Positions 2,501 through 10,028 of a stretch of DNA of 42,130 bases are shown here, in pieces (position 1 is the stretch's first letter; each line of letters begins with the position of its first letter). The translations under genes and the position numbers were made by a program. This stretch comes from Gemmatales bacterium (GTDB lineage: Bacteria > Planctomycetota > Planctomycetia > Gemmatales > HRBIN36): assembly GCA_025055835.1 (NCBI GenBank), contig JANWWR010000153.1, positions 1-42,130 on the forward strand. Direction: 5' to 3'. The notes beneath the pieces were generated by a model that saw only the letters and a list, made by a program, of their open reading frames with translations, ran no database searches and had not been told where the DNA came from.

Positions 2501-3343
2501 ATGGAACCGCTCATTGCCCGGTCTATCTTCAGCACTGCCACGGGTTACATCCGTCGCGGCGGCTTTGCCTGGACGTGCAACCCCTACGTCGGCTGCACGT
2601 TCGGCTGCTCGTACTGTTACGCGATGTTCCTTCCGCAGAACCGTCGGCCCAAGGAACAATGGGGACGCTGGCTCCAGGCTAAGATGAATGCTGTGGAATT
2701 GGCCCGCCGCGAAGCCCCGCGTCTGGCTGGTCAGACGCTCTACCTCTCCAGTGTCACCGATCCCTACCTGCCTCTCGAAGGCCGATTGAAACTGACGCGC
2801 GGCATCCTCGAAGCTCTGCTGCCCCATCAACCGCGCTTGCTGGTGCAAACGCGGGGGCCTTTGGTCGTTCGAGATGCCGATCTGCTAGCGCAGTTCCGCT
2901 CCGTGCGGGTCAACATGTCGATCCCGACCGACAGCGAACCAGTGCGTCGGTTGTTCGAACCGAAAGCCCCGCCGCTGGAGCGCCGTTGGGAGGCCCTTGC
3001 CCGCTTGCGGCGAGCCGGCATCGCCATCGGCATCTGCGTCACTCCCATGCTGCCACTCGAGGATCCCGAAGGCTTCGTCGAACGGCTCTGCGCTTTCGAT
3101 CCCGATGTGCTCGTGGTCCAGGACTTCCACGACGCCCACGGCTGCTTCGGGGCTGACACCGGGCCACAGGCCCGCCGCCTGCTTGCCCAGCTGCCCTGGA
3201 CGGGTGACGACTACCGCGCCGTCCATGCCATGCTGGCGTGTCGGCGAACTGTGTATGAAGGCGAAGCGGGATTCTTCCCGCCGCCCGCAGTCTCGACGCC
3301 AGCCTTCCATCCGGCAACCGATCCCGTTCCAGTGCGACCCTGA
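2501..3343 (+). CDS. SPL-family radical SAM protein
   Basis: This 280-residue protein has a cysteine cluster C32-x3-C36-x2-C39 (CTFGCSYC), the radical S-adenosylmethionine 4Fe-4S motif. The preceding TCNPYVGC resembles the spore-photoproduct-lyase-like group (Rv2578c type). A later LYLSSVTDPYLPLE segment is also typical of that group. True spore photoproduct lyase repairs thymine dimers, but most non-sporulating homologues have no established substrate, so repair activity should not be assumed. The ATG at 2501 follows the upstream stop by 15 bp, suggesting co-transcription. No second cysteine cluster is seen. The class call is firm, the reaction unknown. Confidence 0.82.
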   Translation: MEPLIARSIFSTATGYIRRGGFAWTCNPYVGCTFGCSYCYAMFLPQNRRPKEQWGRWLQAKMNAVELARREAPRLAGQTLYLSSVTDPYLPLEGRLKLTRGILEALLPHQPRLLVQTRGPLVVRDADLLAQFRSVRVNMSIPTDSEPVRRLFEPKAPPLERRWEALARLRRAGIAIGICVTPMLPLEDPEGFVERLCAFDPDVLVVQDFHDAHGCFGADTGPQARRLLAQLPWTGDDYRAVHAMLACRRTVYEGEAGFFPPPAVSTPAFHPATDPVPVRP

Positions 3344-3417: not shown

Positions 3418-4653
3418 ATGAGTCAACGACGTGTCGGCATCTGGTTGATCGGAGCGTTCGGCGGGGTCGGAACCACGGTGGCGGTGGGCCTGTCGGCCCT
3501 GCGGCGAGGCTTGGCTGAGCCGATTGGGCTGACAACGGCGTTGCCACTGTTTTCCAAGCTTGATCTCGATGATGTCTCGGCCTTCGAGGTCGGCGGCCAC
3601 GACATTCGACGCACGGACTTTTTCCAGAGCGTCCGTGAATTTCAGCACCGCGCTCGGGTCTTTCCACCCGAGCTCATCGAACCTTGCCGGGATGACCTGC
3701 TTCGCTGGTCGGCCAACGTCCGGCCCGGCACGATCTTCAACAGCGGCCCGACCATCGCTCGGCTCGCCGATCTGCCCGAAGTCCGCCCCACAGAGTCGCC
3801 CCGCGCCGCCATCGACCGCATCCAGGCCGACTTGAATGCTTTCCGCCGGGAGAATCGTCTCGATCAACTCGTGGTCGTCAACGTCGCCTCGACCGAACCG
3901 CCGTTCCCGCTGACCGAAGCGCATCAAAGCCTCGACCGCTTCGAGGCTGCCTGCCGGGTCAAGGACCATCCACCGCTGCTGCCCGCTTCCGGCCTGTACG
4001 CCCTGGCCGCCCTCGATCTTGGACTGCCCTATGTCAATTTCACCCCGTCGCTCGGGGCCTCTTTCCCCGCCGCCCTGGAACTGGCCGAGCGGCGGAAGGC
4101 CGTCGTCGCCGGGCAGGACGGCAAGACTGGTGAAACCCTGCTGAAAACCGTGCTGGCCCCGATGTTCCAGAAACGGCATCTGCGGGTGCTCAGCTGGGTC
4201 GGGCACAACATCTTCGGCAACCGCGACGGCGTCGTGCTCAATGATCCCGAGAATAAAGCGAGCAAGATTCGCACCAAAGACCAGGTCGTTTCCTCGATTC
4301 TCGGCTACAAGCCGCAGACGCACGTCTCCATCGAGTACATCGAATCGCTCGACGACTGGAAGACCGCCTGGGACCACATCCACTTCGAGGGCTTCCTCGG
4401 CACGCGGATGGTGATGCAGTTCACCTGGCAGGGCTGCGATTCGCTCCTGGCGGCTCCCCTGGTCATTGATCTGGCTCGGCTCGCTCTGCACGCCCAGCGG
4501 CGCGGCGAAGTCGGCGCTCTGCACTACCTCGCCTGCTTCTGGAAGAATCCGATGGGTGTCCAGGAGCACGACTTTTTCAAACAATTCGCCCTGCTGGAGC
4601 AGTACGTCGAACAAGTTGCTTCCGAGCGGGTGGCACCGGCGGTTGGGTCATGA
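3418..4653 (+). CDS. Inositol-3-phosphate synthase (myo-inositol-1-phosphate synthase)
   Basis: This 411-residue protein starts with a Rossmann NAD-binding segment (GIWLIGAFGGVGTT, residues 7-20). It has the C-terminal Inos-1-P synthase core, including DQVVSSILGY, HVSIEYI and FTWQGCDSLLAAPLVIDL. The enzyme converts glucose-6-phosphate to inositol-3-phosphate, using NAD as a recycled cofactor in the cytoplasm; this is the first committed step to inositol and inositol lipids. The ATG follows a strong GGGGGG-AG ribosome site (bases 3410-3417). The stop overlaps the next start by 4 bp (ATGA at 4650-4653), so the TIM-barrel gene behind it should be translationally coupled. The family is confident; the end product in this organism is not known. 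Confidence 0.88.
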   Translation: MSQRRVGIWLIGAFGGVGTTVAVGLSALRRGLAEPIGLTTALPLFSKLDLDDVSAFEVGGHDIRRTDFFQSVREFQHRARVFPPELIEPCRDDLLRWSANVRPGTIFNSGPTIARLADLPEVRPTESPRAAIDRIQADLNAFRRENRLDQLVVVNVASTEPPFPLTEAHQSLDRFEAACRVKDHPPLLPASGLYALAALDLGLPYVNFTPSLGASFPAALELAERRKAVVAGQDGKTGETLLKTVLAPMFQKRHLRVLSWVGHNIFGNRDGVVLNDPENKASKIRTKDQVVSSILGYKPQTHVSIEYIESLDDWKTAWDHIHFEGFLGTRMVMQFTWQGCDSLLAAPLVIDLARLALHAQRRGEVGALHYLACFWKNPMGVQEHDFFKQFALLEQYVEQVASERVAPAVGS

Positions 4654-5507
4654 AGCTGGCCTTCAGCAGCAACGCCTACTTGCGATTTCCATTCGCCGAA
4701 GCGGCCCGACGCATCGCCGCGTTGGGCTATCGGGGCATCGAGATCATGGCCGACGTGCCTCATGCCTGGCCGGCGTTTCTCCTCAACGAGCAGAAGGCCG
4801 CCATTCGGGCTGCTTTGGAGCAGAACCGCTTGAGCATCGCCAACATCAATGCCTTCATGATGAACGCGATCAGCGATCCTCGGCAACGCTACTGGCATCC
4901 GTCGTGGATCGAACCGTACGAACCCTACCGCCGGGTCCGCATCGAACACACGCTTCGCAGTCTCGATCTGGCTCGTGACCTTGGCTCGCCTTGCATCACC
5001 ACGGAACCCGGCGGACCGCTTGAACCCGGACAACGCTGGCAGGAGGGACTTTCCCGCTTCGTTGAGGCACTCAAGCCCGTGGCCGAACACGCGGAGAAGG
5101 TCGGCGTGAAACTGCTCGTCGAACCGGAACCGGGGCTTCTCGTCGAAAACGTCGAACAGTCCGAAGCGCTCATGGCCGAGATGGCCGACTACCCTGCGGT
5201 CGGGCTGAACTTCGACATCGGTCACTTCTTCTGCGTCGGCGAGGATCTTCCGAAGGCGGTGCGTCGGCTGGCCCGGCACATCGGCCACGTTCACCTGGAG
5301 GACATAGCCGCGGATCGGGTTCACTTCCACCGGGTTCCCGGCGAGGGAGCCATTGACTTTCCCGGCGTTCTGGAAGCCTTGCGACAAATCGGTTACGACG
5401 GTTGGGTGACGGTCGAACTGTATCCGTACATTGACGATCCCGATGCCGCCGCCCGTCAGGCTCGGGAGCACGTCCTGGGCCTGTGCGGGCATCTGTTCGA
5501 GGCGTGA
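4650..5507 (+). CDS. Sugar phosphate isomerase/epimerase, TIM barrel (AP endonuclease 2 fold)
   Basis: A 285-residue xylose-isomerase-like barrel. The usual metal-binding set can be read in order: a Glu in LLVEPEPG, Asp and His in LNFDIGHFF, His in GHVHLED, and Glu in VTVELYPY. It should therefore bind a divalent metal and isomerise or epimerise a sugar or cyclitol phosphate. It is coupled by ATGA overlap to the upstream inositol-3-phosphate synthase and by GTGA overlap to the downstream MlaE-like gene, which suggests an inositol-derived substrate. A similar barrel, EboE, accompanies inositol synthase genes in ebo clusters, but the other ebo genes are not seen here. The fold is certain; the substrate is inferred from context. 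Confidence 0.82.
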   Translation: MKLAFSSNAYLRFPFAEAARRIAALGYRGIEIMADVPHAWPAFLLNEQKAAIRAALEQNRLSIANINAFMMNAISDPRQRYWHPSWIEPYEPYRRVRIEHTLRSLDLARDLGSPCITTEPGGPLEPGQRWQEGLSRFVEALKPVAEHAEKVGVKLLVEPEPGLLVENVEQSEALMAEMADYPAVGLNFDIGHFFCVGEDLPKAVRRLARHIGHVHLEDIAADRVHFHRVPGEGAIDFPGVLEALRQIGYDGWVTVELYPYIDDPDAAARQAREHVLGLCGHLFEA

Positions 5508-6268
5508 CCGTGGCACCGTTGAGCGAGGTCCTGGAGCGTGTCGGCAGGTTCCTGGCCTTCACGGGGCAATGTGTGATCGTGTTGCCCTCGGCCTTTGTCC
5601 GTCCCCTGGCCGTCTGGCAGCAACTCTACGGCGCTCTGGTGGGCACGCTGCCGCTGGTCCTCGTGGCCGGTTGCACCATCGGCATCGTCTCCTGGCTCCA
5701 GCTTCGCAGCCTGCTGTCCATGTTCAACAGCGAAACGCTTTTGCCCAGCGCCTTGACACTGGGCACGGTGCGCGGACTGGGGCCGGTCATTGCCGGGCTG
5801 ATCGCCGCCGGTCGCATCGCTTCCGGCATCGGCGCGGAACTCGGCTCCCAGCGAATCTCGGAGCAGATCGACGCCTTGAGCATCCTCGGCCTGTCGCCAT
5901 TGCGACGCCTGGTTGCTCCCCGTGTGCTGGCCTGCATGATCGCCCTTCCGCTTTTGACCCTGTTTACTGACTATCTCGCGGTCCTCAGCAGCTACGTCGC
6001 CGAGGCCATCGGCGGCACCATGACCTGGCCGCAGTATCGCCTTGAAGCCATTCGCTACCTCTACATGCGGGACGCCTTGTTTTCGACACTGAAAACCAGC
6101 GTGTACGGTTTCTGGATCGCCGTCAGCGGCTGCTGGTGGGGACTGGAGACGACGGAAGGCACCGAGGGGGTCGGCAAGGCAGCCACCCGGGCCGTGGTGC
6201 TGGCCACCGTTCTCGTTCTCGTCTCGGACGTGTTTCTTGTTCGGTTGGAGCAGTTGATTCCTGATTGA
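5504..6268 (+). CDS. MlaE-family ABC transporter permease (phospholipid transport)
   Basis: About 254 residues. The start is either GTG 5504, overlapping the previous stop as GTGA, or GTG 5510. The MlaE signature is clear: LGTVRGLGPVIAGLIAAGRI followed by GAELGSQRISEQIDAL, the cytoplasmic coupling region contacting the ATPase, with about five membrane segments around it. MlaE permeases move phospholipid or other lipids between inner and outer membranes together with an MlaF ATPase and an MCE-domain MlaD protein. Neither partner is encoded next to it here, because the following gene is convergent. Coupling to inositol synthase and a sugar isomerase is unusual and suggests a lipid with an inositol-type head group, though this is inference. 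Confidence 0.85.
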   Translation: MTVAPLSEVLERVGRFLAFTGQCVIVLPSAFVRPLAVWQQLYGALVGTLPLVLVAGCTIGIVSWLQLRSLLSMFNSETLLPSALTLGTVRGLGPVIAGLIAAGRIASGIGAELGSQRISEQIDALSILGLSPLRRLVAPRVLACMIALPLLTLFTDYLAVLSSYVAEAIGGTMTWPQYRLEAIRYLYMRDALFSTLKTSVYGFWIAVSGCWWGLETTEGTEGVGKAATRAVVLATVLVLVSDVFLVRLEQLIPD

Positions 6269-8453: not shown

Positions 8454-9353
8454 ATGCGCCTCGATATCTCGTCGGGAATCCTCCGAATCCAGGCACCGGC
8501 GAAGGTGAACCTGTTTCTGGAGATTCTCGGCAAACGGGCAGATGGCTATCACGACATCTGCACGTTCTTCGTAGCCGTAAGTTTGCATGACGTTTTGGAA
8601 ATCCAGGAGGAAGCAACCGGAGCGATCCATCTAAGCTGTGACGACCCACACGTGCCCGTCGGCGAGTCGAACCTGATCGTGCGGGCGGCTCGGCTTCTGC
8701 AACGGCACACGGGAAGGGTGATGGGGGCGAACATTCGCCTCGTGAAGCGTATCCCGATGCAGGCCGGGTTGGGCGGCGGCAGCAGCGACGCGGCGGCAAC
8801 GCTGAGCGGACTGAACATGCTGTGGCAGCTTGGCATCCCTGACGCGGAACTGATGCGGCTGGCTGCGGAACTAGGCAGCGATGTGCCATTCTTTCTGAAT
8901 GGTCCCGCGGCCTGGGGCATGGGGCGTGGCGAAGTACTGGAGCCGATGTGCCTGCCGACGACGCTGCACTTCGTGCTGGTCTGTCCGCCGCGCGGCCTGT
9001 CCACTGCGGAGGTTTATCGGCGGTGTCGCGTGCCTGACATGCCGGTGTCACCCGAGCCTTTGCGAGGAGCACTCTTGAGCGGGGACGTGGAGGTGATCGG
9101 AGCGGCGCTGCACAACCGCTTGCAGGAGGCCGCGGAGGAACTGGCCCAGGAAGTGCGAACGGTCAGGAACGTGTTCGAGAAGCTCAAGCCCGTCGGCCAC
9201 CGCATGAGCGGCAGCGGGTCATGCTGCTTCGCCCTGGGCCGGGACGCTGCTGAGGCCGCTGCCCTGGCGGAACAAACACGGACAGAGCTTGGCCGGGAAA
9301 GGCCGGACCTTTCCTGGAAGGTTTTTGTGGTTCACAGCGAGGGACAGGACTAA
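8454..9353 (+). CDS. ispE: 4-diphosphocytidyl-2-C-methyl-D-erythritol kinase
   Basis: A 299-residue GHMP kinase. The N-terminal APAKVNLFLEILGKRADGYH (residues 14-33) carries the substrate lysine, and PMQAGLGGGSSDAAATL (101-117) is the ATP-binding glycine loop with the catalytic Asp. The C-terminal GHMP motif MSGSGSCCFAL is also present. It phosphorylates CDP-methylerythritol in the MEP isoprenoid pathway in the cytoplasm. No clear ribosome site precedes the ATG at 8454. An overlapping ATG 31 bp upstream is in another frame and is ignored. spoVG follows 84 bp downstream, recalling the ispE...spoVG neighbourhood of Bacillus. The identification is secure. Confidence 0.95.
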   Translation: MRLDISSGILRIQAPAKVNLFLEILGKRADGYHDICTFFVAVSLHDVLEIQEEATGAIHLSCDDPHVPVGESNLIVRAARLLQRHTGRVMGANIRLVKRIPMQAGLGGGSSDAAATLSGLNMLWQLGIPDAELMRLAAELGSDVPFFLNGPAAWGMGRGEVLEPMCLPTTLHFVLVCPPRGLSTAEVYRRCRVPDMPVSPEPLRGALLSGDVEVIGAALHNRLQEAAEELAQEVRTVRNVFEKLKPVGHRMSGSGSCCFALGRDAAEAAALAEQTRTELGRERPDLSWKVFVVHSEGQD

Positions 9354-9437: not shown

Positions 9438-10028
9438 GTGGAAATCACCGAAATCCGCATCAAGCTCATGGACGCCAAGGAGAGCAATAACGAGAGGCTG
9501 CAAGCCTTCTGCTCGATTACCTTCGACAACATGTTCGTCATCCGTGACCTCAAGATCATCGAGGGGGCCAAGGGATCGTTCGTGGCCATGCCCAGCCGCA
9601 AGCTGACCGACCGTTGCCCGGAGTGCGGCTGCAAGAATCATCTGCGGGCGCGGTACTGCAATCAATGCGGTACCCGGCTCAACGAGGACCGAGCCGTCCG
9701 CGACGCCGACGGCCGCATCAAGCTGCACGCCGACATTGCCCATCCCATCAACTCCGCCTGTCGTGAGTTCGTCCAGAACGCCATCATCAAGGCCTTCCAC
9801 GAGGAGCAGGAGAAGGCCAAGCAGCCCGGCTACGTCTGCCGCTACGATGAGATCGACGCAGGCGACTTTGACGACTACGAGCAGGTCATCAACAGCCTGG
9901 ACCGTCGCGGCGAGTCGTATCGGCGGCATTCCGGGCACGACAACCGTTCCGGCCACCGCCACGCCAATAGCAACGAACCGACGTCGGAACGAAAGGAACG
10001 CTCCTTCGGAGCTGGCATCCTCGATTGA
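9438..10028 (+). CDS. spoVG: SpoVG-like RNA/DNA-binding regulator with inserted zinc ribbon
   Basis: A 196-residue protein starting at GTG 9438 behind an AAGGAGG site (9424-9430). Residues 1-54 ([10 protein letters not shown] ... [10 protein letters not shown]) match the first part of SpoVG, and HADIAHPIN (residues 97-105) is the second SpoVG motif. Ordinary SpoVG is about 85-100 residues and joins these two parts with a short loop. Here about 40 residues are inserted with C60-x2-C63 and C74-x2-C77, a zinc ribbon. The C-terminal tail (from about residue 130) is acidic, then rich in His, Ser and Arg. SpoVG proteins bind nucleic acid and regulate gene expression in several bacteria. The planctomycete role is unknown, since these organisms do not sporulate. 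Confidence 0.85.

Follow-up and report, generated by a model that had tools for sequence, protein, structure and literature searches.

Three overlapping genes in the window (the whole stretch of DNA analysed, 42,130 nucleotides, contig C61 of the 3.86 Mb, 95% complete draft genome G000 of a Gemmatales bacterium) probably belong to two unrelated modules. The first is a dispersed MIPS-type ebo pathway, represented here by an inositol-3-phosphate synthase (MIPS) and a TIM-barrel isomerase (ISO); the second is a split Mce transporter, represented by an MlaE-family permease (MlaE2).

Table 1. Coordinates of the trio, its junctions and the upstream gene in the window
Feature	Position	Strand	Basis
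MIPS, inositol-3-phosphate synthase, 411 aa	3418..4653	+	Pfam NAD_binding_5, Inos-1-P_synth; A. fulgidus Ino1 alignment
ISO, xylose-isomerase-like TIM-barrel enzyme, 285 aa	4650..5507	+	Pfam AP_endonuc_2, fold comparison
MlaE2, paralogue of MlaE-family permease	5504..6268	+	Pfam MlaE, conserved segment
ATGA overlap, MIPS stop / ISO start	4650..4653	+	
GTGA overlap, ISO stop / MlaE2 start (ATGA in G001)	5504..5507	+	
Radical-SAM protein, directly upstream of MIPS	2501..3343	+	Same-genus adjacency only

The four-base overlaps at both junctions, reported in the preliminary description of this DNA, were confirmed, and they suggest that the trio may be co-translated. Both junctions are kept in G001, the sole other genome of the genus compared. 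As the second junction there reads ATGA, position 5504 is likely the true start of MlaE2, over 5483 or 5510. Between the two genomes, dN/dS was about 0.05–0.12 for each gene of the trio; MIPS, ISO and MlaE2 are under purifying selection. The radical-SAM gene is probably a bystander. Elsewhere in the window, a single open reading frame at 9438–10028, combining a SpoVG domain with a C-terminal zinc ribbon, directly follows an ispE-like GHMP kinase gene (8454–9353).

MIPS matched the Pfam families NAD_binding_5 (166 bits) and Inos-1-P_synth (122 bits) and aligned end to end, over residues 8–397, with Archaeoglobus fulgidus Ino1, the protein it resembles most (309 bits). Residues K236, K283, K287, K315, K376 and D341 are invariant among relatives; of these, K283, K287, K315, K376 and D341 are the ones we take to be catalytic, going by yeast and archaeal MIPS. 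The gene is present in 60 of 61 relatives of the order. In three relatives of the same family (L044, L049 and L056), the gene directly 3' of MIPS belongs to the L049 DcuC-type transporter cluster.

ISO matched Pfam AP_endonuc_2 with 149 bits. Its putative metal ligands E158, D189, H215 and E256 are kept in close relatives, and H215 is replaced by Gln in a Streptomyces homologue. The structure model was confident (pLDDT 89); its best solved folds were ketose 3-epimerases and similar enzymes at 16–25% identity, which fixes only the fold class, a generic sugar-epimerase fold. Weak similarity was also found to the inosose-acting enzymes IolE, IolI and IolO. Together with the likeness of MIPS to Ino1, this would fit a simpler role for the pair, in which MIPS merely supplies inositol, as phosphatidylinositol precursor or compatible solute, ISO serves inositol turnover, and the resemblance to ebo is superficial.

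ISO occurs in 51 of the 61 relatives. Both MIPS and ISO are present in 51 genomes, 31 of which have them side by side on one strand, no more than 400 bp apart. The preliminary description had asked about conservation of the whole gene order across planctomycetes; what proved order-wide is the MIPS-ISO pair, and the complete trio was found in this genus only. The trio as a single conserved operon is ruled out, because MlaE2 joins MIPS-ISO in this genus alone.

The likeness of MIPS plus a TIM-barrel isomerase to ebo genes, noticed at the outset, was borne out by complete MIPS-type ebo clusters in other phyla. On Streptomyces plasmids (L283, L284, L287, L319), MIPS is followed by an SCO3242-type UbiA prenyltransferase, a sugar-phosphate isomerase, EboA, a TatD hydrolase, EboE and a phosphodiesterase (NPP). 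Plasmids of Natronococcus, Halobaculum and Halocatena (L281, L282, L286) carry the order TatD-isomerase-UbiA-isomerase together with MIPS-NPP, and on a Gemmatirosa plasmid (L285) EboE, TatD, NPP, UbiA, MIPS and an isomerase lie inside 13 kb. Judged only by position, MIPS appears to occupy the EboD place in these clusters. Aligned over its full length, ISO shares 40% identity with each of the two haloarchaeal isomerases. The Streptomyces SCO3242-SCO3243 set (UbiA and MIPS) is similar in that MIPS directly precedes an SCO3242-family prenyltransferase and a sugar-phosphate isomerase; it differs in its isomerase, which is nearer to the second isomerase (ISO2) of an Isosphaerales-type locus (50% identity) than to the window ISO (33%). 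Literature searches, which mostly did not extend to subscription journals, turned up no publication that describes MIPS within an ebo cluster.

In the planctomycetes themselves, the gene after ISO in relatives encodes an EboC/SCO3242-like UbiA prenyltransferase. In the example scanned, EboC (198 bits) and SCO3242 (145 bits) were the best families, both below cut-off; for the UbiA of the window genome, on contig C159, the best NCBIfam family was likewise EboC, although the score of 185 bits falls short of the cut-off (250). Fifteen genomes have ISO and UbiA on one strand, at most 301 bp apart; a sixteenth has them within 1 kb. EboC-like UbiA was found in 60 of 61 genomes, and the lone exception, G042, also lacks MIPS and ISO. 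Isosphaerales-type loci, for example in Aquisphaera, read MIPS-ISO-UbiA, mostly followed by ISO2, and another seven planctomycete loci read MIPS-UbiA. On C159 of the window genome, the gene immediately upstream of the EboC-like UbiA encodes a further TIM-barrel isomerase, which bears a Tat-like signal (L159:9950-10828, - strand).

An EboF-like phosphodiesterase is encoded at C172:6738-8045, with 49% identity over 433 aa to the Gemmatirosa NPP, and such a gene was present in 20 of 21 genomes tested. EboA gave no match in the planctomycete loci examined. The ebo-type genes are unclustered in the window genome, with MIPS-ISO on C61, UbiA on C159 and NPP on C172. In the published survey of three Planctomycetes, ebo genes showed no clustering and eboD was missing in two of the three (PMC5133447). 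Compared with the ebo cluster eboA-F (Yurchenko et al. 2016, PMC5133447; Klicki et al. 2018, PMC6282210), the set shares a cyclitol-forming enzyme, a TIM-barrel isomerase, an EboC-like UbiA and an EboF-type phosphodiesterase; it differs in having MIPS at the EboD place, another TIM-barrel family for EboE, and genes spread over three contigs.

ISO is not EboE itself: it scored 30 bits against the EboE family (NF035939), whose cut-off is 250, and a search of the window genome with this family gave no match. Among the 21 genomes analysed, EboE exceeded the cut-off in five (G009, G011, G013, G014, G020), exactly those without ISO. Owing to this complementary distribution, ISO can be regarded as a stand-in for EboE and probably does its job. 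On the tree, the exclusion is represented by two well-supported independent pairs, or four when all branches are counted, with a consistent direction; the swap is thus based on 21 genomes and two well-supported independent events. True EboE loci were recorded as L292-L295 (G020, G013, G011, G014).

The inositol-supply explanation raised above draws further on MIPS loci of a different kind. One Bacteroides MIPS is part of a typical inositol-lipid operon, together with genes for an NDP-sugar synthase and a CDP-alcohol transferase, and the MIPS loci of Halomarina, Hymenobacter and Roseomonas showed no ebo set around MIPS; since some taxa have MIPS loci without ebo genes, the link between MIPS and ebo is not automatic. 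The Bacteroides operon resembles the present case in that MIPS is the first enzyme. Unlike the present set, it has neither UbiA nor the isomerase, and here no CDP-alcohol transferase besides PgsA was found. The partner of MIPS that recurs across phyla is the EboC-like UbiA, not a CDP-alcohol transferase. A single CDP-alcohol phosphotransferase gene (PF01066) was found in the window genome (about 95% complete), and it scored above the PgsA cut-off. The polar lipids of Gemmata algarum comprise PC, PE and several unidentified lipids, with no identified PI (PMC10817699). PgsA as the sole enzyme of this class and the lack of identified PI in Gemmata algarum make a phosphatidylinositol pathway less likely. 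We therefore regard inositol supply as an unlikely function of the pair; its membership in a MIPS-type ebo pathway is, in our estimate, likely.

From gene presence, synteny, conserved residues and the ISO/EboE swap, which are the observed basis of the ebo-type module, we infer its reactions, their order and the product as follows. MIPS would convert glucose-6-phosphate to inositol-3-phosphate, and ISO, at the EboE place, would isomerise or epimerise a cyclitol or sugar intermediate. The EboC/SCO3242-like UbiA (C159) would then prenylate the product in the membrane, and the EboF-like phosphodiesterase (C172) would take off a phosphate-containing group. The end product would be an isoprenoid-cyclitol, with a prenyl chain on an inositol-type ring; an isoprenoid-cyclitol has already been proposed as the ebo product (PMC5133447). 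As the cyclitol source, MIPS may also fill the planctomycete eboD gap.

MlaE2 matched Pfam MlaE with 201 bits (cut-off 22.5); its score in the subfamily TIGR00056, 164, was below the cut-off of 212. It keeps the AELGSxRxxEQIDAL segment, in which E110, E118, Q119, D121 and A122 are invariant. It represents a second MlaE group, present in 46 of the 61 relatives, and stands beside ISO in this genus only; elsewhere it lies away from MIPS-ISO. As already described for the window, no MlaF ATPase or MCE protein gene adjoins it, and no canonical mlaF or MCE gene was found beside MlaE2 at about 40 loci of relatives either. Distant MLAF1 matches of 27–35% identity, several kb from MlaE2, were considered as an mlaF of its own and set aside as generic ABC ATPases. 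A methyltransferase and other neighbours in relatives were considered as partners and found to be inconsistent across loci.

Partner genes were found at other places in the window genome. A complete canonical mlaE-mlaF-mlaD operon is located on contig C76; the preliminary description had named such a separate operon, in a cell without inositol lipids, in advance as evidence against its reading of the trio as one pathway. A second MCE protein, MCE2, with a C-terminal OmpA-like domain, is encoded on contig C69 (L005:4145-5266, - strand), unlinked to any permease or ATPase gene. OmpA-like domains usually carry an arginine in the LSxxRA motif; in MCE2 orthologues this residue is mostly glutamine, and peptidoglycan binding by MCE2 appears doubtful. 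MCE2 also differs from the elongated MlaD of Veillonella (PMC10665443) in ending in an OmpA-like domain, not a beta-barrel.

The distribution of MlaE2 follows that of MCE2. Of the 46 genomes that carry MlaE2, 45 also have MCE2, as against two of the 15 that lack MlaE2 (45 with both, 1 with MlaE2 only, 2 with MCE2 only, 13 with neither; p = 2 × 10−10). MCE2 was confirmed by sequence within a set of 40 loci, in which the two MCE types split cleanly, and was taken in the remaining genomes as an MCE gene unlinked to the first MlaE (MlaE1). The exceptions are G032, with MlaE2 and without any MCE gene, and G037 and G046, with MCE2 and without MlaE2 (fragmented drafts). In contrast, MlaE2 showed no association with ISO (37/9/14/1 in the same order, Fisher's test, p = 0.43). 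The MIPS tree implies at least eight changes of MlaE2, and MCE2 changes the same way in 5.2 of six independent pairs and never in the opposite one; the tree-corrected test gave a median p of about 0.06.

These results bear directly on the preliminary description, in which an inositol-type lipid is the product of MIPS and ISO and the MlaE protein of the window moves it between membranes. The overlap of the three genes and their staying together in both genomes of the genus are in its favour, as is the need for Nostoc ebo genes in precursor export to the periplasm (PMC6282210). This single pathway was not supported: MlaE2 adjoins ISO in this genus alone, is independent of ISO in its occurrence and tracks the second MCE protein, and no PI-synthase-type enzyme was found besides PgsA, so that the classical phosphatidylinositol route went undetected in the 95% complete genome. 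We consider it very unlikely that MlaE2 moves a lipid made by its two neighbours; functional separation of the two modules is strongly favoured.

At a threshold of 50% identity or more, almost all genomes yielded a single MlaF; two were found in G035, and none at that level in G018, G030 and G037. A dedicated second MlaF was looked for and not seen. In genomes G034, G054 and G058, from which MlaE1 is missing, MCE2 is the only MCE type, and a single MlaF is nevertheless present. Because there is one MlaF in nearly every genome, also where MlaE1 is lacking, the ATPase is probably shared. The second module would then be a second Mce lipid transporter encoded by scattered genes: MlaE2, MCE2 on C69, and the MlaF on C76 in common with the canonical mla operon. 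Co-occurrence and the single MlaF make it rather likely that MlaE2 works in a complex with MCE2 and this MlaF. In the Mla/MCE transporter (E. coli MlaFEDB), MlaE is the homologue of MlaE2 and MlaD that of MCE2; unlike in that system, their genes are unlinked and the ATPase is seemingly shared with the canonical operon.

The lack of a canonical mlaF or MCE neighbour at every locus examined could also mean that MlaE2 is a partnerless protein, vestigial or with a function other than transport. The dN/dS values given above, the retention of the putative ATPase-contact segment, and gain and loss together with MCE2 all argue against this, and we judge it highly improbable. As part of the proposed split transporter, MlaE2 has come to stand behind ISO, in the position of UbiA in relatives, in this genus only; co-expression would be the most that was gained, and co-transcription with MIPS-ISO might be functional here.

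A more far-reaching possibility is that planctomycetes, actinomycetes, Gemmatimonadota and haloarchaea have a common inositol-based ebo pathway, with MIPS for EboD and two interchanging TIM-barrel families, which would make a prenylated inositol-type lipid, perhaps a carrier, and that in this genus it has been joined to a second-Mce permease exporting that lipid. As a whole, this seems quite unlikely. The substrate of the EboD cyclase has so far been only a guess, sedoheptulose 7-phosphate. MIPS, with its well-known chemistry, at the EboD place gives a testable start, in which the cyclitol would be inositol phosphate, and the mutual exclusion of ISO and EboE offers a handle on the TIM-barrel step of ebo. 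An orphan MlaE that goes together with an MCE-OmpA protein encoded elsewhere in the genome suggests that second transporters may be assembled from unlinked genes and missed by operon-based surveys.
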